A DNA stretch of 64,000 bases from Streptomyces sp. NBC_01451 (GTDB lineage Bacteria; Actinomycetota; Actinomycetes; Streptomycetales; Streptomycetaceae), in NCBI RefSeq assembly GCF_036227485.1, contig NZ_CP109479.1, forward strand, positions 3,472,001 through 3,536,000, written 5' to 3'. Shown here piece after piece: positions 49,563-64,000 of the stretch. A program made the position numbers and the translations under genes. The number at the start of each line of letters is the position of its first letter. The first letter of the stretch is position 1. The notes beneath the pieces are model-generated. The model was not told the origin of the DNA, ran no database searches, and saw only the letters and a program-made list of their open reading frames with translations.

Positions 49563-50738
49563 TCACTCGGTGTCGGGTATCGGCAGCGGGCGCTTCTCGA
49601 TGGCCGCGGCCATGATGTCCGGGAACAGGTCGGGAGTGCAGGCGAACGCCGGTGCTCCCAACGCCGCGAGTGCCGCCGCGTGCTCCCTGTCGTACGCCGG
49701 CGCCCCCTCGTCCGAGAGCGCGAGCAGCGTCACGAACTGCACCCCGGACGCCTTCATCGCGGCGACCCGCTTCAGCATCTCGTCGCGTATGCCTCCTTCG
49801 TAGAGGTCGCTGATCAGCACGACGACGGTCTCGGCGGGCCGGGTGATCTGCGACTGGCAGTACGCGAGCGCCCTGTTGATGTCCGTGCCACCGCCGAGCT
49901 GCGTACCGAACAGCACGTCCACCGGATCGTCGAGCTGGTCGGTGAGGTCGACGACCGCCGTGTCGAAGACGACGAGCCGGGTGTCGATCGACCGCATGGA
50001 CGCCAGCACCGCCCCGAACACCGACGCGTACACCACCGATGCCGCCATCGATCCCGACTGGTCGATGCAGAGGACGACCTCCTTCTTCACCGACTGGGAG
50101 GCGCGCCCGTACCCGATGAGCCGCTCCGGCACGATCGTGCGGTACTCCGGGAGGTAGTGCTTGAGGTTGGCCGAGATCGTACGGTTCCAGTCGATGTCGT
50201 GATGGCGCGGCCTGCTGATACGGGCACTGCGGTCCAGCGCACCGGTGAGCGTGGCCCGGGTCCGGCCGGCGAGCCGCTTCTCGAGATCCTCGACGACCTT
50301 GCGTACGACCGCTCTCGCCGTCTCCTTCGTCGTCTCCGGCATCGCCTTGTTGAGGGAGAGCAGCGTGCCGACGAGGTGGACGTCCGCCTCGACCGCCTCC
50401 AGCATCTCGGGCTCCAGCAGGAGCGCGGAGAGACCGAGCCGGTCGATGGCGTCCCGCTGCATGACCTGGACGACGGACGACGGGAAGTACGTCCGGATGT
50501 CACCGAGCCATCGTGCGACCGACGGCGCGGACGCCCCGAGCCCCGCCGAACGGTCCCGCCCCGGCCGGCCCCGGCCCCCGTCGTCCCTCCCGTAGAGCGC
50601 GGCGAGCGCGCCGTCCATCGCGGCGTCCTGTCCGGAGAGCGCACACCCGGTACCGTCCGCCGCGTCGCCCCCGAGCACGAGGCGCCACCGCCGCAACCGC
50701 TCCTGTGCCGGATCCGCCGACTCGGTCGCCGTCGTCAT
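49563..50738 (-). CDS. VWA (CoxE-type) metal-ion-dependent adhesion protein
   Basis: 391 aa. The C-terminal von Willebrand A domain (about 220-385) has a complete MIDAS: DQSGSMAAS near 228, the conserved Thr in GGGTDINRAL near 285, and ISDLYEGG near 308. The N-terminal half is helical (CoxE/YehP-like), with a histidine in RPRHHDIDWNRTI. ATGA overlap with DUF5682 shows coupling. Partner of the MoxR ATPase encoded upstream; such pairs work as metal- or protein-insertion chaperones. Confidence 0.88.
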   Translation of the reverse strand: MTTATESADPAQERLRRWRLVLGGDAADGTGCALSGQDAAMDGALAALYGRDDGGRGRPGRDRSAGLGASAPSVARWLGDIRTYFPSSVVQVMQRDAIDRLGLSALLLEPEMLEAVEADVHLVGTLLSLNKAMPETTKETARAVVRKVVEDLEKRLAGRTRATLTGALDRSARISRPRHHDIDWNRTISANLKHYLPEYRTIVPERLIGYGRASQSVKKEVVLCIDQSGSMAASVVYASVFGAVLASMRSIDTRLVVFDTAVVDLTDQLDDPVDVLFGTQLGGGTDINRALAYCQSQITRPAETVVVLISDLYEGGIRDEMLKRVAAMKASGVQFVTLLALSDEGAPAYDREHAAALAALGAPAFACTPDLFPDIMAAAIEKRPLPIPDTE

Positions 50739-53278
50739 GTCCCCACCCCCACAAGGTTGTTGTCGTCGACGCCCCCGTCACCCGCGTCCGACGGCCCCAG
50801 CAGCAGCCGCAGCACCGGCAACACGGCATCCGCCCGCCGGGCGTCGAGGCCGGGTGCGAACCCCGGCACACCGGCGGCGCCGGTCACCGCACTTCCCCCT
50901 TTCCCCGGGCCGCGCCGGACCAGTTCCCCCAGCGTTCTGCGCACCCCCGGCTCGTACACCGAGAACGTGCGCCTCAGCAGGGGCAGCACATCGGTGAACG
51001 CCTCCGCGGACACGCCGGTCAGCCAGGCGTCTACCAGCCCGAGCAGCCGCTCGTCGTGCACCAGGAGCATCCCGCCCCCGGAGCCGCCCCCGACGAACCC
51101 CTCGATCCACGCCGCCGCGTCCCCCGGCGCCGTCCCCGGCGACAGCACGAGCCCCACGAGGACCGCCGCCTCGTCCTGCGCCAGCTCCCCGTCGTCCAGC
51201 AGCAGCCGCACGGCCCGCCCGCGCACGACCCCGGCCACACTGTCCCGCGCGCACAACACCCGGAGCACGGAGTGCCAGCGGTGCCGCAGCTCGCTGTGCC
51301 GTCCCGGCGCGGGGACATCCTCGGCGGCGCTCGCGGGAGTGTCCTCGGGCTCGGAGTCCCTCACGGGGACCTCCGCGGCGGGGCCCGCGGAGACACCGCC
51401 CGGAGAGGCCCCCGCGGCAGCGCCACCAGCCGGAGCCGGAGCCGTGTTCGTGCCGGCGGCCTCGCCGAGCAGCCCCACCGCCCCGTGCACCGCGTCCACA
51501 TGGCGCCGCATTTCCTCGGCGGCCTCCGTGTCGAGCGCGGCGCAGGCCGGGGGCAGGCCGACGAAGACGCGCTCGGCGAGACCCGCCGCGACCTCGGCCA
51601 GCGCCCGGGTGTCCGTGCCGCGTACATCGCCGTAGCGCAGGGACCGGACCAGCGCCGGAAGTGCCTGGGCCAGGTGGCCCACGTCGGCGTCGAGGGCCGC
51701 GCGGTCGGCGAGGACCCGCATCACCACGGGGAGCGCGTCGGCCAGTTCGGCGAGCAGACAGCGCTCGGCGAGTCCGGTCACGTCGGCCAGTGAGCCCGCG
51801 CCGACGGCGTCGGCCTCCGCCCTGGCGGTCGCCGCCGAGAGCACGGTCGTCCCCCACACACCGGCCTCGGCGACCCGTACCGCCAGCTCCGGCTCCCACC
51901 TCAGGCGCCACGTCTCCCGGAAGGTACCGGTGCTGCCACGCGACGCCGCGGGCTCGCCCCAGCCGATCCCGAGCAGCCGCAGGCGGTGCAGCAGCCGGCT
52001 GCGCGCGGCGTCGGTCTCCTTGCGCAGATCGAGCTCCAGCTCCCTTTCCAGCGCCTCCGGTTTGAGCCGCAGCCGACGCTGAAGGCGCGTCAGGTCCCGT
52101 TGCAGGGGCACCGTGGGCGCCGACTCCGGTACCTCGCCCAGCACGTCTCCGACGACGAGCCGGTCCTGCACCAGGGCCAGCGGGACGTCCGAGCCCTCGC
52201 ACATCACCGCCCGCACGGCGTCGGTCGTCTCGGTGAGTCCCGGCAGCGGGCGCCCCCGCATCGCCGCGAGCGTCTCCGCCAGCCGCACCGCCTCGATGAC
52301 GTGCGCCGAGGAGACCATCCTGTCCTCGTCGCGCAGCAGCCCGGCCACCTTGGTCATCCACCGCTCGACCGGCCGGTCCCGCGCGCCGAACAGGTGCCCG
52401 TACCAGCCGGGCGAGTCGATGCCCGCCCCGTACCCGCTGGACCGCGCGAGCCTGCGGTGCGTCCACGGCACCCAGGTCACGTCCACCTTGACCTTGGCCA
52501 GCCCCTTCAGCAGCGCCCGGTCGGCGGCGACGGCGGTCTTCCGCCGCAACGCGGGCACATGCCAGGCGCCGCACACCACGGCCACCGCCGCGTCCCCGAA
52601 CTCCCTCTGTGCCGCCCGCATCTGGAGCCGCATGTACGCCTCCCGCACGGGATCCCGGTCGTGGCCCCCGGTCCCGTACACCTCACGCAGCGCGCCCATG
52701 GCCTCTTCGAGCGCCTCGAAGGGAGCGAACGCGTCCCCCTCCCCCGTCCCCCGGTGCTCGACGACGTCCTCCCACCAGCGCTCCGGATCGTCGTAACCAC
52801 CGGTCCTCGCGAGCACGGCGAGCGGATCGACCCGCAGATCGACGTCCGTGACCGTGTCCGTGCCGGACGCCGGACCATCGGTTCCGTCCCCCTCGCCCTC
52901 CGGCTCCCCGTCCTCCGCCACCTCCGCCGTCTCGTGCTCCCAGGCGAGTGTGTGCGTGGCGGGGAGGTCGATGAAGCGGACGGGGACCCCGTGTTCGAGG
53001 GCCCAGCGGATCGCCACCCACTCCGGGGAGAACTCGGCCAGCGGCCAGAACGCCGAGCGGCCGGGTTCGTCCACGGCGTGGGCCAGCAGGGCGACCGGTG
53101 GCCGCATGTCCTCGTCGGCGGCGAGCGGGACCAGGGCGTCGGCCTCGGGCGGCCCCTCGATCAGGACGACCGCCGGCCGCGCCGCCGCCAACGCGGCCCG
53201 CACCGCCCGCGCCGAACCGGGCCCGTGATGCCGCACACCGAGCAGCAACGGCCCGGTGCTCCGCCCGGCCTCGGTCAC
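50735..53278 (-). CDS. DUF5682 protein, TraB/EreA-superfamily-like N-terminus
   Basis: 847 aa from GTG 53278 (AGGAAGGGGG upstream; GTG 53299 possible). The N-terminus reads LGVRHHGPGSARAVRAAL then VVLIEGPPEAD, resembling the His- and Glu-containing core of the TIKI/TraB/EreA hydrolase-like superfamily. RFIDLP near 110 and YMRLQMRAAQREFGD near 220 fit that fold. The remaining 550 residues are helical with no named domain. It lies between the MoxR gene and the VWA gene in one coupled operon, so it is probably a substrate or effector of the module. Confidence 0.8.
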   Translation of the reverse strand: MTEAGRSTGPLLLGVRHHGPGSARAVRAALAAARPAVVLIEGPPEADALVPLAADEDMRPPVALLAHAVDEPGRSAFWPLAEFSPEWVAIRWALEHGVPVRFIDLPATHTLAWEHETAEVAEDGEPEGEGDGTDGPASGTDTVTDVDLRVDPLAVLARTGGYDDPERWWEDVVEHRGTGEGDAFAPFEALEEAMGALREVYGTGGHDRDPVREAYMRLQMRAAQREFGDAAVAVVCGAWHVPALRRKTAVAADRALLKGLAKVKVDVTWVPWTHRRLARSSGYGAGIDSPGWYGHLFGARDRPVERWMTKVAGLLRDEDRMVSSAHVIEAVRLAETLAAMRGRPLPGLTETTDAVRAVMCEGSDVPLALVQDRLVVGDVLGEVPESAPTVPLQRDLTRLQRRLRLKPEALERELELDLRKETDAARSRLLHRLRLLGIGWGEPAASRGSTGTFRETWRLRWEPELAVRVAEAGVWGTTVLSAATARAEADAVGAGSLADVTGLAERCLLAELADALPVVMRVLADRAALDADVGHLAQALPALVRSLRYGDVRGTDTRALAEVAAGLAERVFVGLPPACAALDTEAAEEMRRHVDAVHGAVGLLGEAAGTNTAPAPAGGAAAGASPGGVSAGPAAEVPVRDSEPEDTPASAAEDVPAPGRHSELRHRWHSVLRVLCARDSVAGVVRGRAVRLLLDDGELAQDEAAVLVGLVLSPGTAPGDAAAWIEGFVGGGSGGGMLLVHDERLLGLVDAWLTGVSAEAFTDVLPLLRRTFSVYEPGVRRTLGELVRRGPGKGGSAVTGAAGVPGFAPGLDARRADAVLPVLRLLLGPSDAGDGGVDDNNLVGVGT

Positions 53279-53424
53279 GATGCCCCCTTCCTTACCCACG
53301 TCGAGTCGTCGTCATCGACCGCTTCACTCACGCCACCGCCCCACACGGACACCGAACCGCCTCCCGCCGACATCCCGTACCCCCGTCCCCGTCCATCCGC
53401 GCCCCCACCCACGGCACGGCTCAT
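53275..53424 (-). CDS. Possible 49-aa Gly-rich microprotein linking MoxR and DUF5682 genes
   Basis: ATG 53424 overlaps the MoxR stop (ATGA), and its TGA overlaps the DUF5682 GTG (GTGA), so it fits exactly between the two genes. Sequence begins MSRAVGGGADGRGRG and ends DDDDSTWVRKGAS: a Gly-rich half, then an acidic patch. GAGG precedes the ATG. The double overlap is a pattern seen in real coupled Streptomyces genes, but the protein has no homologue I know, and it may only be a translational bridge. Confidence 0.45.
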   Translation of the reverse strand: MSRAVGGGADGRGRGYGMSAGGGSVSVWGGGVSEAVDDDDSTWVRKGAS

Positions 53425-54566
53425 GCGCTCGCCTCACGGCAGGCCCGGTAGAAGTCCTTCCAGCCGTCGCGTTCGCGGACCACCGCCTCCAGGTACTCCT
53501 GCCAGACGACCCGGTCGGCCGCCGGATCGCGGACGACGGCGCCGAGGATGCCCGCGGCGACGTCGGAGGCCCGCAGGACGCCGTCGCCGAAGTGGGCGGC
53601 CAGGGCCAGGCCGCTGGTGACCACCGAGATCGCCTCGGCGGTGGACAGCGTGCCGCTGGGCGACTTCAGCTTCGTCCGGCCGTCCGACGTGATCCCGTCG
53701 CGCAGTTCACGGAAGACGGTCACGACGCGACGGATCTCGTCGACACCGTCCGGCACGGCCGGCAGGTCGAGCGAGCGGCCGATCTGGTCGACCCGGCGCG
53801 AGACGATGTCCACCTCGGCGTCGGCGCTCTCCGGCAGCGGCAGCACGACCGTGTTGAAGCGGCGCCGCAGGGCGCTGGACAGCTCGTTGACCCCGCGGTC
53901 GCGGTCGTTGGCCGTCGCGATCAGGTTGAACCCGCGTACCGCCTGCACCTCCTGGCCCAACTCCGGTATCGGCAGGTTCTTCTCCGACAGGATCGTGATC
54001 AGCGTGTCCTGTACGTCGGCCGGAATACGGGTCAGTTCCTCGACACGGGCCGTCATCCCCTCCGCCATCGCCCGCATGACGGGGCTGGGCACGAGGGCCT
54101 CACGGCTCGGGCCGTGCGCGAGCAGCCGCGCGTAGTTCCAGCCGTACCGGATCGCCTCCTCCGGCGTGCCGGCCGTGCCCTGGACCAGCAGCGTCGAGTC
54201 GCCGCTGACCGCTGCCGCCAGGTGCTCGGACACCCAGGTCTTCGCCGTGCCGGGGACGCCGAGGAGCAGCAGGGCGCGGTCGGTCGCCAGGGTCGTGACG
54301 GCGACCTCGACGATGCGGCGCGGGCCCACGTACTTCGGGGTGATCACCGTGCCGTCGGGGAGGGTGCCGCCCTGCAGGTAGGTCGCGACGGCCCACGGCG
54401 ACAGTTTCCAGCGGGCCGGGCGCGGGCGGTCGTCCTGCGCGGCCAGCGCGGCGAGTTCGGCGGCGAAGGCGTCCTCGGCGTGCGGGCGCAGTTCCTCCGT
54501 GCCGTTCGCGTGCGCGGACTGCTCCTGACGCGGTTCGACGGATGTCGGTTCAGTGGAAACAGACAT
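53421..54566 (-). CDS. MoxR-family AAA ATPase
   Basis: 381 aa from ATG 54566, GGAGGGGG upstream. Walker A GVPGTAKTW near 95-103, a MoxR-type insert, sensor-1-like LIATANDRDRGVNEL near 210-224 and arginine-finger region SSALRRRFN near 226-234. The N-terminal 45 residues are a low-complexity extension. MoxR ATPases act with VWA proteins to remodel or load cofactors into target proteins. First gene of the minus-strand arm; a damage-type promoter element lies 54-76 nt upstream. Confidence 0.9.
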   Translation of the reverse strand: MSVSTEPTSVEPRQEQSAHANGTEELRPHAEDAFAAELAALAAQDDRPRPARWKLSPWAVATYLQGGTLPDGTVITPKYVGPRRIVEVAVTTLATDRALLLLGVPGTAKTWVSEHLAAAVSGDSTLLVQGTAGTPEEAIRYGWNYARLLAHGPSREALVPSPVMRAMAEGMTARVEELTRIPADVQDTLITILSEKNLPIPELGQEVQAVRGFNLIATANDRDRGVNELSSALRRRFNTVVLPLPESADAEVDIVSRRVDQIGRSLDLPAVPDGVDEIRRVVTVFRELRDGITSDGRTKLKSPSGTLSTAEAISVVTSGLALAAHFGDGVLRASDVAAGILGAVVRDPAADRVVWQEYLEAVVRERDGWKDFYRACREASA

Positions 54567-54619
54567 GGCTCGGTCCCCCTCCAGCTCGGCCGGTCTTGGC
54601 CCGTTCGGATCTGGTGTCC

Positions 54620-54642
54620 ACACTGCACCACGCCACTGACAA
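54620..54642 (-). promoter_or_regulatory. RecA-NDp/PafBC-like promoter element for the MoxR operon (imperfect)
   Basis: On the minus strand TTGTCAGTG (54642-54634), 8 nt, then CAGTGT (54625-54620). The consensus tTGTCRGtg-N8-TAnnnT is matched except that the -10 begins CA rather than TA. The MoxR start is 54 nt downstream of the -10. Confidence 0.55.
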
Positions 54643-54703
54643 TGCGCTCTGAGCTGCGGAAATACCATTTCTGGAGCCGAGTGGAGATCGTCGCGGGGGC
54701 CGA

Positions 54704-54726
54704 TTGTCAGTGCCGGGATCTACCTT
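54704..54726 (+). promoter_or_regulatory. RecA-NDp/PafBC-type DNA-damage promoter for the SWIM gene
   Basis: TTGTCAGTG (54704-54712), 8 nt, TACCTT (54721-54726): a full match to the SOS-independent damage-promoter consensus tTGTCRGtg-N8-TAnnnT known in Streptomyces and mycobacteria. Transcription would begin near 54733, at or one base before ATG 54734, so the mRNA is predicted to be leaderless. No Shine-Dalgarno is present, in keeping with this. Confidence 0.7.
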
Positions 54727-54733
54727 CGATGTC

Positions 54734-56092
54734 ATGACTCAGCAGGGGGTGCGCTGGACAGCGGATCAGGTGCTGGCACTGGCGCCTGACGTCTCGTCAC
54801 GCAAAGCGGGAAGCAAACTCGGTGCGGCCGGGCCGTGGTCGGAGGCCGGCAGTTCCGACGAGGGGACGGTGTGGGGACTGTGCAAGGGCAGTGGCAGCAA
54901 GCCGTATCAGACGGTCGTCGACATCGCGGACGCCACCGGGCCCGCGTACAAGTGCAGTTGTCCCAGCCGGAAGTTCCCGTGCAAGCACGCGCTCGGGCTG
55001 CTGCTGCTCTGGGCGGGCGGGGACGGCGCGGTGCCGCGAGGGGAGGCGCCGGGCTGGGCGGAGGAGTGGCTGGCGGGGCGGCGGAAGCGGGCGGAGGAGA
55101 AACGGACGGCGGGCGCGGCCGGTTCCCCGTCCGGTTCCGGTGATCCGGAGGCCGCTCGACGCAGGGCGGAGCGCCGGGCCGAGCGGATCACGGCGGGGGC
55201 GACGGAGCTGGAGCAGCGCCTCGCCGACCTGCTGCGCGGCGGCCTGGCCACGGCGGAGCAGGCGGGGTACGGGCTGTGGGAGGAGACGGCGGCCCGCATG
55301 GTCGACGCCCAGGCCCCCGGACTGGCGGCGCGGGTAAGGGAGTTGGGGGCGATCCCGGCGTCCGGCCCGGGCTGGCCGGTGCGGCTGCTGGAGGAGTGCG
55401 CGCTGCTGCATCTCCTCGACCGGGGCTGGCTGCGCCGGGACGAGCTGCCGGACGGTCTGGCGGCGACGGTCCGGTCGCGGATCGGCCTGCCCGGCTCGGC
55501 GGACGGCCCGCCGGTGCGCGACCAGTGGCTGGTCCTCGCCCAGTACGAGACGGCGGACGCCCGCCTGACGACCCGCAGGATCTGGCTGCACGGCGCGGAG
55601 TCGGGCCGTACCGCCCTGCTCCTCTCGTACGGGGCGGCCGGCCGGGCCCCCGAACTGGCACTGCCGGTCGGCCTGGCGTTCGAGGCGGAGGTGTCCGCGT
55701 ATCCCGGCGCCGGGCAGTTGCGGGCGGCCCTGGGAGAGCGGTTCGCACCACCCGCGCCGACGGGGACACGGCCGCCGGGGACGACGACCACGCGCGCGGC
55801 GGAGCTCTACGGTGACGCCCTCCGGGACGATCCCTGGCTGGACTCCTTCCCCGTGACGCTGGACCGGGTGATACCCGTCCCGGACGGCGGCTCCTGGCAA
55901 CTGGCGGATGCCGACTCCGACTTGGCGCTGCCCCTGGCCCCCTCCGCCGTCGCTCACCCCGGCCTGTGGCGCCTCGTCGCGCTCTCGGGCGGGGCTCCCG
56001 TGACGGTCTTCGGCGAGTGCGGCCACCGCGGTTTCACTCCTCTGACGGCCTGGCCGGAGGAGGCGGCGGGACAGGCGGTCCCGCTGTGCTGA
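54734..56092 (+). CDS. SWIM zinc-finger protein
   Basis: 452 aa from ATG 54734. The SWIM motif CSCPSRKFPCKHALGL (CxCx6CxH) lies at about 75-90, binding zinc and probably DNA or protein. An Arg/Glu-rich helix (about 110-165) and a long C-terminal region without named domain follow, ending PLC. SWIM proteins occur with recombination and with MoxR/VWA modules. 64 nt before the DUF5691 gene; probably one transcript, driven by the damage-type promoter. Confidence 0.88.
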   Translation: MTQQGVRWTADQVLALAPDVSSRKAGSKLGAAGPWSEAGSSDEGTVWGLCKGSGSKPYQTVVDIADATGPAYKCSCPSRKFPCKHALGLLLLWAGGDGAVPRGEAPGWAEEWLAGRRKRAEEKRTAGAAGSPSGSGDPEAARRRAERRAERITAGATELEQRLADLLRGGLATAEQAGYGLWEETAARMVDAQAPGLAARVRELGAIPASGPGWPVRLLEECALLHLLDRGWLRRDELPDGLAATVRSRIGLPGSADGPPVRDQWLVLAQYETADARLTTRRIWLHGAESGRTALLLSYGAAGRAPELALPVGLAFEAEVSAYPGAGQLRAALGERFAPPAPTGTRPPGTTTTRAAELYGDALRDDPWLDSFPVTLDRVIPVPDGGSWQLADADSDLALPLAPSAVAHPGLWRLVALSGGAPVTVFGECGHRGFTPLTAWPEEAAGQAVPLC

Positions 56093-56156
56093 GGCGACCC
56101 GGCACAACACGACTCACGGCTCCCCGACTCCACCGCTCCCGACGAAGGGGAATCTC

Positions 56157-57857
56157 ATGAACGGCAGCAGGGCCTCCACCCCCGTGGACTCGCCTTCCGT
56201 GATCTCGCCCTCGGCGGACGCCTGGGAGGAGCTGGTCACCGCGGCGCTCCTCGGCACGGAGCGGCGTACGCCCCCGGGCTGCCCGCCGGGCAGGCAGGCG
56301 CCGGTCGCGCTGCTCGACGCGGCGGCCGTGGAGACCGTACGGCGGCGTGCGGGGCTGCGACCGGCCAGGGCGGCGACGCGGCCGGAGCCCGCAGCGGCGG
56401 ACCCACGACCGCCGCTGCCGCCCGCGGCGGCCCGCCGGCTGTCGCTGCTGCTGGCCGACCGGCCCGGCACCCCGGGCGGCAGCGGTCGCCGGGGCACGGC
56501 GCCGGACCTGATGGAGCTGCTGCCCCAGTGGCTCGCGGCGGCGAACACGCACGGTTTCGCGGCGCCTCCACAGGCGCTGCCCGCACTGCTCGACGCGGCC
56601 AGGGGGCGTACGGATCTGCGTCCGGCGGCGCTCGCGTTCGCGGGCCCGCGCGCGCTGTGGCTCGCCCGGCTGAACCCGGACTGGCGGTTCGCCCTGCGCT
56701 CGACGCCGGGAGGGGGCGCGTCCCTGCCGGGCGTCGAGGAGGCGGAACAGATCCAGCGGCTCTGGCAGGAGGGCCTGTTCGCCGAACGCGTCTCCCTCCT
56801 CGCGGCGATACGCGCGCGGGAGCCCGCCGCCGCCCGGGAGCTGCTGGAGACGACCTGGGCGACAGAGCGGGCCGAGGACCGGCTGATGTTCCTCGACTCG
56901 CTCCGCACGGGACTGCGCGCCGAGGACGAGCCGTTCCTGGAGCGGGCGTTGGCCGACCGCAGCCGCAACGTCCGGGCGACAGCTGCGGAGTTGCTGTCCG
57001 CGCTGCCCGATTCGGCACTCGCCGCACGGATGGCGGTCCGCGCGGGAGCGTGCGTGGCCCTCGACCACACGAGCAGCGCGGACGACGCAAGCGTTACGGG
57101 CGGTACGAGGGGCGGGACGGCGCTGGTCGTCGAGGCACCGCACGAGTGCGACGCGGGCATGGAGCGCGACGGCGTCGTGGCCAAGGCCCCGGCGGGGCGT
57201 GGTGAACGGTCCTGGTGGCTCGGCCAGTTGGTGGAGGCAGCGCCGCTCGGATCGTGGTCGGGGCGGCTCGGCGGACGTACGCCCGAGGAGATCGTGGCGC
57301 TGCCGGTGGCCGACGACTGGCAGGGCGAGCTGCACGCCGCGTGGTGCCGGGCTGCGGTGCGGCAGCGGAACGCCGACTGGTCGAGGGCGCTCCTCGGCGC
57401 GCCCTCGACACCCGGAGCCGGCGGCCCCGGGGCGGTGTCCCTGGCGGAGCGGGCGAAGCTGCTCGCCACGCTGGCCTCCGCCGAACGGGCCGACTGGGTG
57501 GCGGGGTTCATCGCGACGCACGGACTGTCCGAGGCCTTCCAGCTGCTCGGGGTGTGCGCGGTGCCGTGGGCGCCACCGCTCGGGCGGGCAGTGGTCGACG
57601 CACTCAACATCGCTCGGGACGCCGGGAGTTACCCATGGAGCTTCAGCGGGGTGATGGGGCTCGCGGAACGCTGCCTCGACCCCTCCGAGGCCGGCCGCCT
57701 CGACGGCCTGCTGGCGATACCCGACGAGGGGAAGGACGCCTCACCGGGCGCGGGCAGCTACTGGGCGGAGGCCTTCCAGCGCCTCGTAGGCACGTTGCGT
57801 CTGCGCGCGACGATGGAGGAGGAACTGACAGCGGGCGGGCGGGTGGGAGAAGCCTGA
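56157..57857 (+). CDS. DUF5691 protein
   Basis: 566 aa; AAGGGGA precedes ATG 56157. It starts with a motif typical of the family, WEELVTAALLGTERRTPP (about 23-40), then an Arg/Ala-rich stretch and HEAT-like helical segments (RSRNVRATAAELLSALPDSA near 270 reads as a HEAT repeat). No catalytic signature. I identify it as DUF5691 from its constant association with SWIM, MoxR, VWA and DUF5682 genes; the role may be scaffold or adaptor. Its stop is 55 nt from the convergent icmB-like gene. Confidence 0.75.
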   Translation: MNGSRASTPVDSPSVISPSADAWEELVTAALLGTERRTPPGCPPGRQAPVALLDAAAVETVRRRAGLRPARAATRPEPAAADPRPPLPPAAARRLSLLLADRPGTPGGSGRRGTAPDLMELLPQWLAAANTHGFAAPPQALPALLDAARGRTDLRPAALAFAGPRALWLARLNPDWRFALRSTPGGGASLPGVEEAEQIQRLWQEGLFAERVSLLAAIRAREPAAARELLETTWATERAEDRLMFLDSLRTGLRAEDEPFLERALADRSRNVRATAAELLSALPDSALAARMAVRAGACVALDHTSSADDASVTGGTRGGTALVVEAPHECDAGMERDGVVAKAPAGRGERSWWLGQLVEAAPLGSWSGRLGGRTPEEIVALPVADDWQGELHAAWCRAAVRQRNADWSRALLGAPSTPGAGGPGAVSLAERAKLLATLASAERADWVAGFIATHGLSEAFQLLGVCAVPWAPPLGRAVVDALNIARDAGSYPWSFSGVMGLAERCLDPSEAGRLDGLLAIPDEGKDASPGAGSYWAEAFQRLVGTLRLRATMEEELTAGGRVGEA

Positions 57858-61496: not shown

Positions 61497-64000
61497 CTAA
61501 AGCTTTTCCACCGGCGCGTAGCGCAGCAGCAGCCGCTTCGGCTTGTCCTCGCCGAAGTCGACCGTCGCCTCGGCGTTCGAGCCCGTGCCGTTGACACCCA
61601 CCACGGTGCCCAGCCCGAACTGGTCGTGCGTCACCCTGTCCCCCACCGCCAGCGCGACGACCGGCTTCTCGACACCGCCGCGGCGCGTGGCGAAGCCGGA
61701 CGCGCCCGAGGCCGCGGAGCGCGACCGCGAGGACGCCAACGACGAGAACGACGACGCCACCCCGGAGGCCGGGCCCGAGGATGTCGCCGGAGCCATGGCG
61801 CCCGTGCGCTTCCACTCCAGATGGGCCGCCGGGATCTCCTCCAGGAAACGCGAGGGCGGGTTGTACGACGGCTGCCCCCACGCACTGCGCAGCGACGAGC
61901 GCGTCAGGTACAGCCGTTCACGCGCGCGCGTGATGCCGACGTACGCGAGCCGCCGCTCCTCCTCCAGTTCCTTGGCCTGGCCGAGGGCACGCATGTGCGG
62001 GAAGACGCCGTCCTCCATGCCGGTCAGGAACACCACGGGAAACTCAAGGCCCTTGGCGGTGTGCAGGGTCATCAGGGTGATGACGCCGGAGCCGTCGTCG
62101 TCCTCGTCGGGGATCTGGTCGGAGTCCGCGACCAGGGCGACCCGCTCCAGGAACGCGGCGAGCCCGGCCGGGGCCGGCGGCTCGCCCTCGGCGGGCTGGT
62201 CGGCCTCGGCCGCTTCCCCGGCCGCGGCCGATTCCTGCTCGAACTCCAGGGCCACCGCGGCGAGTTCCTGGAGGTTCTCGATCCGGGTCTCGTCCTGCGG
62301 GTCGGTCGACGCCTGCAACTCGGCCAGATAGCCGGTGCGTTCGAGGACCGCTTCGAGGACGGTGGCCGGGCCCGCGCCCGACTCCACGATCGTCCTCAGG
62401 TCCTCCATCAGCGTGTTGAACCGCTTGACGGCGTTGGTCGACCGTGAAGCCATCCCGTACGCCTCGTCCACGCGCTTCAGTGCCTGCGGGAAGCTGATCT
62501 TCTCGCGCTGGGACAGGGCGTCGATCATCGCCTCCGCGCGGTCGCCGATGCCGCGCTTGGGGACGTTGAGGATGCGGCGCAGCGGCACCGAGTCCTCCGG
62601 ATTGGCCAGGACGCGCAGGTAGGCCAGGACGTCCCGGACCTCCTTGCGCTCGTAGAAGCGGACGCCGCCGACGACCTTGTAGGGCAGGCCGACGCGGATG
62701 AAGATCTCCTCGAAGACACGGGACTGGGCGTTCGTCCGGTAGAAGACGGCGACGTCGCCCGCCTTCGCGTCGCCCGCGTCCGTCAGCCGGTCTATCTCCT
62801 CGGCGACGAACTGTGCCTCGTCGTGCTCCGTGTCGGCGACATAGCCGGTGATCTGAGCACCCGCGCCCGCGTTGGTCCACAGGTTCTTGGGGCGCCGGGA
62901 CTCGTTGCGCTCGATGACCGCGTTGGCGGCGCTCAGGATCGTCTGCGTGGAGCGGTAGTTCTGTTCGAGCAGGATCGTCGTCGCATCCGCGTAGTCCTCC
63001 TCGAACTGGAGGATGTTGCGGATCGTCGCGCCCCGGAAGGCGTAGATCGACTGGTCGGCGTCGCCCACGACACACAGTTCGGCGGGCGGTACGTCGGCGG
63101 CGTCACCGGTGTGCTCGGCGGTGCCGACGAGTTCCCGTACGAGCGCGTACTGGGCGTGGTTGGTGTCCTGGTACTCGTCGACGAGGACGTGCCGGAAGCG
63201 GCGGCGGTAGTGCTCGGCGACGTCCGGGAAGGCGCGCAGCAGGTTGACCGTCGTCATGATCAGGTCGTCGAAGTCGAGCGCGTTGGCCTCACGCAGTCGC
63301 GACTGGTACATCGCGTACGCCTGGGCGAGGGTCTTCTCGAAACCGTCGTTCGCCTGGGCGGCGAAGTCCTCCTCGTCGATCAGCTCGTTCTTCAGGTTGG
63401 AGATCTTCGCGCTGAAGGACTTGGGCGGGAAACGCTTGGGGTCCAGGTCCAGATCGCGGCAGACGAGCGCCATCAGCCGCTTGCTGTCGGCGGCGTCGTA
63501 GATCGAGAAGGAGGATGTGAAGCCGAGCCTCTTGCTCTCCCGCCGGAGGATCCGCACGCACGCGCTGTGGAACGTCATCACCCACATCGCGTTCGCGCGC
63601 GGGCCGACGAGGTGCTCGACGCGTTCCTTCATCTCGCCGGCGGCCTTGTTGGTGAAGGTGATCGCGAGGATCTGGCCGGGGTGGACGCCCCGCTCGCCGA
63701 GCAGATACGCGATGCGGTGCGTGAGCACACGCGTCTTGCCGGAGCCGGCGCCCGCCACGATGAGCAGGGGGGTGTCGGCGTGCACGACGGCCGCGCGCTG
63801 GTTCTCGTTCAGCCCGTCCAGGAGCGCGGCCGGGTCCACCACCGGGCGCGGGGCGCCGTCGCGGTAGTACGCGTCCCGGTCCGGCGGCGCGTCGAACTTC
63901 CCGCCGAACAGGTCGTCCGGAACGGGCTCCGGCGCATGCTCGTCCTCGGGCGGCGGCGGGGGTTCCTCCTCGCGGGCCCGAGGACCCTGGAGGTCCGCCA
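61497..64000 (-). CDS. pcrA: ATP-dependent DNA helicase PcrA/UvrD (5' end outside window)
   Basis: At least 834 codons; the frame is open to the window edge without a Met, so the start lies outside. The N-terminal extension is acidic and Pro-rich (EEEPPPPPEDEHAPEP), typical of Streptomyces PcrA. Superfamily 1A helicase motifs are complete: GAGSGKT (Walker A), TFTNKAAGEM (Ia), VDEYQDTNHAQ (II), GDADQSIYAFRGA (III), EQNYRST (IV), LMTLHTAKGLEFPVVFL (V), AYVGITRARERL (VI). It unwinds DNA in repair and replication restart. The C-terminus has a Tudor-like end (VGDRVTHDQFGLGTVV) that binds RNA polymerase in relatives. Confidence 0.95.
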   Translation of the reverse strand, partial: ADLQGPRAREEEPPPPPEDEHAPEPVPDDLFGGKFDAPPDRDAYYRDGAPRPVVDPAALLDGLNENQRAAVVHADTPLLIVAGAGSGKTRVLTHRIAYLLGERGVHPGQILAITFTNKAAGEMKERVEHLVGPRANAMWVMTFHSACVRILRRESKRLGFTSSFSIYDAADSKRLMALVCRDLDLDPKRFPPKSFSAKISNLKNELIDEEDFAAQANDGFEKTLAQAYAMYQSRLREANALDFDDLIMTTVNLLRAFPDVAEHYRRRFRHVLVDEYQDTNHAQYALVRELVGTAEHTGDAADVPPAELCVVGDADQSIYAFRGATIRNILQFEEDYADATTILLEQNYRSTQTILSAANAVIERNESRRPKNLWTNAGAGAQITGYVADTEHDEAQFVAEEIDRLTDAGDAKAGDVAVFYRTNAQSRVFEEIFIRVGLPYKVVGGVRFYERKEVRDVLAYLRVLANPEDSVPLRRILNVPKRGIGDRAEAMIDALSQREKISFPQALKRVDEAYGMASRSTNAVKRFNTLMEDLRTIVESGAGPATVLEAVLERTGYLAELQASTDPQDETRIENLQELAAVALEFEQESAAAGEAAEADQPAEGEPPAPAGLAAFLERVALVADSDQIPDEDDDGSGVITLMTLHTAKGLEFPVVFLTGMEDGVFPHMRALGQAKELEEERRLAYVGITRARERLYLTRSSLRSAWGQPSYNPPSRFLEEIPAAHLEWKRTGAMAPATSSGPASGVASSFSSLASSRSRSAASGASGFATRRGGVEKPVVALAVGDRVTHDQFGLGTVVGVNGTGSNAEATVDFGEDKPKRLLLRYAPVEKL

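Follow-up and report, generated by a model that had tools for sequence, protein, structure and literature searches.

A five-gene module of Streptomyces homologous to Deinococcus ddrTUVWX, with a predicted PafBC-type promoter on each divergent arm

In Deinococcus deserti, the operon ddrTUVWX (Deide_18730 to Deide_18690) is induced by radiation in an IrrE-dependent manner and is controlled by IrrE/DdrO, with an induction of more than 5-fold reported for Deide_18720, Deide_18710, and the VWA CoxE-like Deide_18690 (PMC5552922); PMC8072749 lists the function of these genes as unknown. The operon of D. taeanensis bears the same name and, according to PMC9510100, carries an extra gene of 78 residues between ddrV and ddrW. 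In Streptomyces, RecA-NDp promoters are known as such (PMC5087735, PMC9411070), this element being a described target of PafBC (PMC6789036), and in S. coelicolor it precedes both recA and a macrodomain gene induced 5-fold by ultraviolet light (PMC5087735). Here, we analyze a stretch of 64,000 nucleotides from Streptomyces sp. NBC_01451 (positions 3,472,001 to 3,536,000 of contig NZ_CP109479.1, hereafter the window), in which genes for a SWIM zinc-finger protein and a DUF5691 protein stand back to back with genes for a MoxR ATPase, a DUF5682 protein, and a VWA protein. With a probability that we put at roughly 85%, this region harbors, in its Streptomyces version, a five-gene module for DNA damage that is homologous to ddrTUVWX and has a PafBC-type promoter on each divergent arm. 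An earlier, sequence-only reading of the window had proposed a damage link and had believed it to be undescribed for this gene set: this holds for the actinobacterial set, for which no tie to PafBC was found in the open-licence literature searched, but not for the Deinococcus homologue (PMC5552922).

Promoter elements of the divergent module

The 9-mer TTGTCAGTG occurs exactly twice in the window, where 0.12 copies are expected from base composition, and the two copies lie inverted at 54634-54712, one before each arm, just where the sequence-only reading had placed them (table 1). Sites were scored against the consensus TTGTCRGTG-N8-TANNNT (12 positions), whose letters come in part from that reading. 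On the SWIM side, the match is exact, with TACCTT at a distance of N8, and the ATG (54734) follows only 7 nt after this -10 element, so that a leaderless transcript is predicted. On the MoxR side, the site deviates, again as described beforehand, only by the CA that opens its -10: it reads CAGTGT instead of TANNNT and lies 53 nt upstream of the moxR ATG, a start taken as 54566 by reading of the sequence, versus a mechanical open reading frame (ORF) start at 54668. Only the exact form of the motif carries weight, because a loose scan of the window (up to 3 mismatches) returned 8 matches against 7.0 in shuffled sequences, that is, no enrichment.

At the scale of the genome (one contig of 10.27 Mb, in which the window is G000:C1:3472001-3536000), TTGTCAGTG-N8-TANNNT is found at 33 sites, with none in the reversed control and about 0.06 expected from base composition. 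Freeing the first letter of the -10 (TTGTCAGTG-N8-NANNNT) raises the count to 65, the control still being 0, and this letter is T at 33 sites, C at 20, G at 9, and A at 3. The ORFs downstream of all 33 T-type sites were read, and 20 of the 32 besides that of SWIM were scanned with Pfam, which revealed RecA, UvrA, UvrB, UvrD/PcrA, the large subunit of exonuclease VII (xseA), MGMT (ogt), and MgsA/RarA, together with a protein of the uracil-DNA glycosylase superfamily, a RuvA-containing ORF, and DEAD-box helicases. The same type of site also precedes PhoH, a sigma factor, YjbR, DUF4132, immunity-protein families, and one target without a family, and some sites (e.g., at loci L007 and L016) are not closely followed by a convincing gene. 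As an observation in its own right, SUKH-4 and Imm51 immunity-family proteins are encoded directly behind exact sites at G000:C1:6043288 and 6128053 (loci L017 and L018), as if these immunity genes were damage-induced.

Among the C-type sites, 14 of the 20 were read besides that of moxR, and 8 of those 14 were scanned with Pfam: five precede genes for an Lhr helicase, DNA polymerase I, an IMS polymerase, an NAD-dependent DNA ligase, and a DNA polymerase III delta-type protein, and the other three precede genes for a pentapeptide-repeat protein, a DUF5937/ArsR-type protein, and a protein without a family. The start codon lies 6-7 nt past the -10 at 7 of these 14 sites, and 94 nt past it for the DNA polymerase III delta-type gene. 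The CA-type -10 of moxR therefore makes it a member of a class that is used by repair genes (polA, dinB, ligA, lhr). Five of the 20 C-type sites, that of moxR included, display GGTGCANNNT at the -10, the upstream TG of which may make up for the missing T. On a separate note, the pentapeptide-repeat protein starts 6 nt past its site at G000:C1:4291077 (L117:781-1494). Pentapeptide-repeat proteins can act on DNA gyrase, and a damage link would fit such a protein.

The candidate regulator itself is encoded in the genome. Two genes belong to the Pup-ligase family, and about 2 kb behind the second of them, with two ORFs in between, a gene for a WYL/WCX protein overlaps a gene for a WYL/WCX protein with an HTH_PafC domain; this pair is followed by ORFs interpreted as tatA and tatC and, further on, by a helicase gene with an exact site in front of it. 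A pafABC neighborhood of this arrangement is known from mycobacteria, and PafB and PafC, the proteins through which a RecA-NDp/PafBC promoter acts, are accordingly taken to be present in this strain.

Conservation and architecture across Actinomycetota

Of the 61 genomes sampled in the genus, 56 encode the SWIM protein, and 50 of these 56 loci were examined. The SWIM site matches the consensus at 11 or 12 of its 12 positions in all 50 (exactly in 46), and the start codon lies 5-9 nt past the -10 in 49. On the opposite strand upstream of SWIM, the pattern [TAC]TGTCAGTG is encountered within 700 nt in 44 of the 50 loci, 43 of which have the exact 9-mer, and all 43 have CANNNT as -10. A search starting from MoxR itself, in ten genomes for which the MoxR side was mostly unclear, recovered the element in nine. 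The sequence-only reading had proposed precisely this search at homologous SWIM and MoxR loci, and had held that a lack of the motif there would count against it: no such lack was encountered within Streptomyces, whereas some other actinobacterial families have no recognizable site.

Outside the genus, the architecture of the module changes, and the site changes with it. In a sample of the class (236 genomes, 60 with a match, of which 22 in the genus and several others weak), 38 matching genomes fall outside the genus, and loci were retrieved from 34 of them, four weak ones (L112-L115) being without such an operon. Whenever at least two of the five genes were present, they lay on one strand in the order SWIM-DUF5691-MoxR-DUF5682-VWA. 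We also examined a set of 80 named loci, namely those that, out of 577 relatives, are most like a Microbispora-type DUF5682 protein. This sample is uneven, and five of its loci lack SWIM or MoxR and were dropped where they could not be scored. In this set, the two arms are divergent in 20/20 Streptomycetaceae, and the genes lie on one strand in 55/55 others. A score of at least 10 of 12 is reached upstream of SWIM in 20/20 Streptomycetaceae, 31/52 other Actinomycetota, and 0/3 cyanobacteria, and upstream of MoxR in 20/20, 1/54, and 0/3, respectively; at a score of at least 9, the SWIM counts become 47/52 for the other Actinomycetota and 2/3 for the cyanobacteria. We regard 10 as the telling threshold because 280-nt control windows reach it rarely (1.4% in other Actinomycetota and 1.9% in Streptomycetaceae, true sites included) and reach 9 far more often (9.4% and 8.4%). 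The promoter thus goes with whichever gene heads the transcription unit, and with both heads where the unit is split; the single operon of other Actinomycetota would seem to have been split into two arms in Streptomycetaceae.

Table 1. Coordinates of the module, its putative promoters, and related features (window positions unless a contig is given)
Feature	Position	Strand	Remarks
SWIM zinc-finger protein (DdrT-like)	54734..56092	+	Pfam PF04434; CxC-x6-CxH, residues 74-85
DUF5691 protein (DdrU-like)	56157..57857	+	Pfam; predicted helical solenoid, modelled on a fused relative
MoxR AAA+ ATPase, YehL type (DdrV-like)	53421..54566	-	Pfam AAA_5; Walker A GVPGTAKT
DUF5682 protein (DdrW/YehM-like)	50735..53299	-	alpha/beta N-terminal domain, then helical repeat domain
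VWA CoxE-type protein (DdrX/YehP-like)	49563..50738	-	Pfam VWA_CoxE; intact MIDAS (metal-ion-dependent adhesion site) DQSGS at residue 226
Predicted RecA-NDp/PafBC-type promoter, SWIM arm	54704..54726	+	TTGTCAGTG 54704-54712, N8, -10 TACCTT 54721-54726
Predicted RecA-NDp/PafBC-type promoter, MoxR arm	54620..54642	-	TTGTCAGTG 54642-54634, N8, -10 CAGTGT 54625-54620
pcrA/uvrD helicase, neighbor	61497..64000, start beyond window end	-	Pfam UvrD/PcrA
Second, paralogous operon	G000:C1:1842152-1853154 (L249:2153-13154)		exact RecA-NDp site, one of the 33

Weighing the damage-response reading

The company of repair genes, the PafB/PafC-type pair, the conservation in the genus, and the shift of the site with the architecture all bear out the interpretation of the two sites as RecA-NDp/PafBC elements, and the regulatory part of our explanation can be considered strongly supported by these comparisons of sequences. 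From the repair-type promoters on both arms, and from the radiation induction of the Deinococcus homologue under an unrelated regulator, it follows that the module very probably belongs to the DNA-damage response, where it has been overlooked, and its induction in Streptomyces is predicted. The same five genes being under PafBC-type sites in one lineage and under IrrE/DdrO in the other, a single module would be wired to two unrelated LexA-independent damage regulators.

Several observations weigh against this reading. A 2022 paper on LexA in S. venezuelae mentions an initial search in which the PafBC motif of M. smegmatis was not conserved (PMC9380542); the counts given above disagree with this statement as regards the present genome and the promoters of the module across the genus. 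Within Streptomyces, no motif was detected up to 1.4 kb from MoxR in genome G047. Outside the genus, a site before SWIM (up to 2 mismatches in TTGTCAGTG) is present in only 12 of 30 loci, all 12 in one family (12/19 in f15; one exact, most at leaderless distance), and in 0/11 loci of families f4, f16, f22, and f37; likewise, 21 of the 52 SWIM loci of other Actinomycetota in the named set score below 10, five of them below 9. Even recA, found in 18 of the 20 non-genus genomes queried, has an upstream site in 10 of these 18, often in the form ATGTCGGTGG-N7-TAGCTT, and has none in all four f15g30 and all three f16 recA genes. Given these family-wise results for SWIM and recA, the element is lineage-dependent and drifts away from its Streptomyces form. 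Moreover, LexA-type box patterns are absent near the first gene at the eight non-Deinococcus loci scanned (E. coli, two Rhizobium, Methylosinus, Hymenobacter, and three cyanobacteria, the scan of Rhizobium sp. Kim5 having missed the true start), and hence no damage link was seen there. Finally, fold searches returned no match with E <0.001 (the N-terminal domain of DUF5682 was not folded alone), and DUF5682 did not match a TraB/ChaN/EreA-like hydrolase by Pfam, by PDB sequence, or by hhalign to YbaP. The damage link is thus suggested by the type of promoter in Actinomycetota and demonstrated by experiment in Deinococcus only.

The same LexA scan lends weight to the alternative that fares best, namely that the PafBC targets are real but that the module is devoted to general stress or protein quality control, or to a damage-triggered defence of the MoxR-vWA type, and simply borrows the damage signal. 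In other settings, MoxR systems serve in the maturation of enzymes (PMC3893208), and MoxR-vWA conflict systems have been described (PMC12839542, PMC7159879), although a search of PMC7159879 for SWIM and YehL returned nothing. However, PADLOC defence models matched none of the five proteins (0 families at E 0.01), SWIM is near-universal in the genus (56/61 genomes), unlike a patchy defence island, and the module accompanies core repair genes in two unrelated regulons. We consider this alternative possible, if clearly short of even odds.

Much less probable is the idea that the SWIM arm alone is damage-controlled and that the element on the MoxR side is vestigial, its CA -10 being weak. The C that opens this -10 without exception where genus loci have the exact 9-mer (43 copies) would agree with it, yet 7 of the 14 columns outside that selected 9-mer are invariant across these 43 loci, including a GGTG just before the -10, whereas the spacer on the SWIM side varies among genus loci (as judged by eye); besides, the element stays with MoxR in all 20 named Streptomycetaceae, and its CA -10 is common to polA, dinB, ligA, and lhr. 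Least probable of all is some other promoter element with no tie to DNA damage, such as a sigma-HrdB promoter of the ordinary kind, with a TTGTCA -35 that arose by chance: TTGTCA does look like a -35 box, TANNNT like a housekeeping -10, and induction in Streptomyces is a prediction, but the 9-mer with its fixed spacing is present hundreds of times more often than expected and is located at repair genes, an element of the RecA-NDp name (its letters here being in part those of the sequence-only reading) is the described PafBC target (PMC6789036), and such an element precedes recA and the UV-induced macrodomain gene of S. coelicolor (PMC5087735).

Proteins, proposed mechanism, and comparison with known systems

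With regard to the composition of the arms, MoxR does stand with VWA and DUF5682, as the sequence-only reading had seen, but the order is MoxR-DUF5682-VWA according to Pfam; and of these three genes, only moxR falls inside the interval 53421..57857 that had been assigned to the module, DUF5682 and VWA lying beyond it. The pcrA helicase that had been pointed out as a neighbor is present, but its gene extends past the end of the window, where it has an exact RecA-NDp site of its own (window-equivalent 64038-64060).

The zinc-finger motif CxC-xn-CxH of SWIM is complete (CSCPSRKFPCKH), its ligands CSC-x6-CKH being intact. In relatives, SWIM and DUF5691 can be fused into one protein of 925-1050 residues, as seen in Nocardia, some Micromonosporaceae, and two further families (loci L186, L196, L206, L209, L212, L221, L228, and L229; L093, L099, and L101), which suggests that the two proteins operate as a single unit. 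The MoxR protein has what characterizes the YehL subfamily, that is, an AAA_5 domain with a Walker A motif (found by eye, automated Walker patterns having matched nothing), a VWA partner gene, and a DUF5682 neighbor, and its sequence matches midasin and NorQ chains. Its Walker B motif reads ARVEEL, not the usual DE. It may be mentioned that the MoxR protein at L276:10668-11756, 71% identical over 357 residues to that of the window (53421-54566), departs from DE in the same place, the two having RVEEL or RLEEL there next to a normal Walker A. As for DUF5682, which is 76-80% identical to its counterparts in several named Streptomyces, its N-terminal domain has invariant RHH, E, FSPE, DLP, REA, and GxxH motifs. 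Since fold searches and the TraB-family comparison yielded no match, the idea that it may be an enzyme comes from residue conservation only.

A second operon with DUF5682 was detected in the same genome (table 1), which encodes a DUF4132 protein, a 1693-residue ORF without a Pfam match, a MoxR protein, and a DUF5682/VWA fusion. The first protein of this operon, DUF4132, is encoded in 24 of the 61 genus genomes, and a site with a score of at least 10/12 lies within 300 nt upstream of its gene in 21 of these 24, this first gene alone having been traced.

On this basis, PafBC, once activated by single-stranded DNA, would act on the housekeeping RNA polymerase and so turn on the two arms jointly once DNA is damaged. 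The step by which PafBC senses single-stranded DNA is known from mycobacteria. The MoxR AAA+ ring, with the VWA protein as its MIDAS adaptor, might then act on a client, remodeling or activating it as NorQ/NorD or midasin do. DUF5682, in which His, Glu, and Asp residues are invariant, could be this client and an enzyme, whereas recruitment to damaged nucleoprotein, or recognition of the target, might fall to the SWIM zinc finger together with the helical solenoid of DUF5691. Although we see this as the likeliest protein mechanism, we hold it only tentatively, at well under even odds, and the loading or unloading of a partner, put forward in the sequence-only reading, may likewise be a role of the module. 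A broader proposal, which we hold tentatively and at a little under even odds, is that the module represents a new type of damage machine that crosses phyla, equipped with an AAA+/VWA remodeler, its own recognition pair (zinc finger and solenoid), and its own enzyme, and that it was recruited separately into the PafBC regulon of Actinomycetota and the DdrO regulon of Deinococcus, a promoter on each arm keeping the wiring after the split in Streptomycetaceae and the paralogous set being wired likewise.

These observations link three orphan gene sets, namely ddrTUVWX of Deinococcus, yehLMPQ of E. coli, and the actinobacterial operon, and designate survival of DNA damage as what to test. They also provide sequence evidence for a PafBC-type regulon in Streptomyces, a question left open by PMC9380542, and indicate that the CA-type -10 class would escape a strict TANNNT search. 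When one module stands under two damage regulators that are unrelated to each other, this speaks strongly for the importance of its product to damaged cells.

Of 72,556 plasmid records, 30 contain DUF5682. Rhizobium sp. K102 shows the five-gene order, and so do plasmids of Hymenobacter radiodurans and Methylosinus, there without an annotated VWA gene; for Rhizobium sp. Kim5, the annotation gives the first gene as no more than a hypothetical protein of shorter length. Among systems with a MoxR AAA+ ATPase and a VWA partner, NorQ/NorD, CoxD/CoxE, and RavA/ViaA are comparable in this pairing, but the neighbors in the window are DUF5682, SWIM, and DUF5691. A cousin of the module is yehLMPQ of E. 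coli, which shares a MoxR protein of the YehL subfamily, DUF5682, VWA_CoxE, and a SWIM protein, but which has no DUF5691 match and whose YehQ aligns with the SWIM protein of the window at the zinc finger only, without significance; yehI (DUF4132) stands beside it, so that the second operon of our genome resembles yehI-yehL-yehM-yehP in gene content. The PafBC regulon and its RecA-NDp promoters agree with the present sites in consensus, spacing, company of repair genes, and presence of PafB/PafC-type genes, and differ from them in the CA-type -10 of the MoxR arm, which departs from TANNNT.

For ddrTUVWX, the comparison was made on the sequences of D. taeanensis. The D. taeanensis operon, carried by a plasmid, encodes SWIM, DUF5691, an AAA ATPase, the 78-residue protein, DUF5682, and VWA, with identities to the window proteins of 71% for MoxR, 54% for VWA, 43% for DUF5682, 37% for SWIM, and, over 69 residues only, 38% for DUF5691 (E 5e-8). 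A palindrome resembling the radiation/desiccation response motif (RDRM) lies 36-20 nt before its SWIM start, and its pattern has no second match in 26 kb, which is weak evidence because the pattern was framed after seeing the sequence. The five proteins and their order are thus the same, in a single operon in other Actinomycetota as in D. taeanensis and in two parts in Streptomycetaceae, and the Deinococcus module is damage-inducible independently of LexA; but where Deinococcus has one operon repressed by DdrO at the RDRM, Streptomyces has two divergent arms, each with a putative activator-type RecA-NDp promoter.

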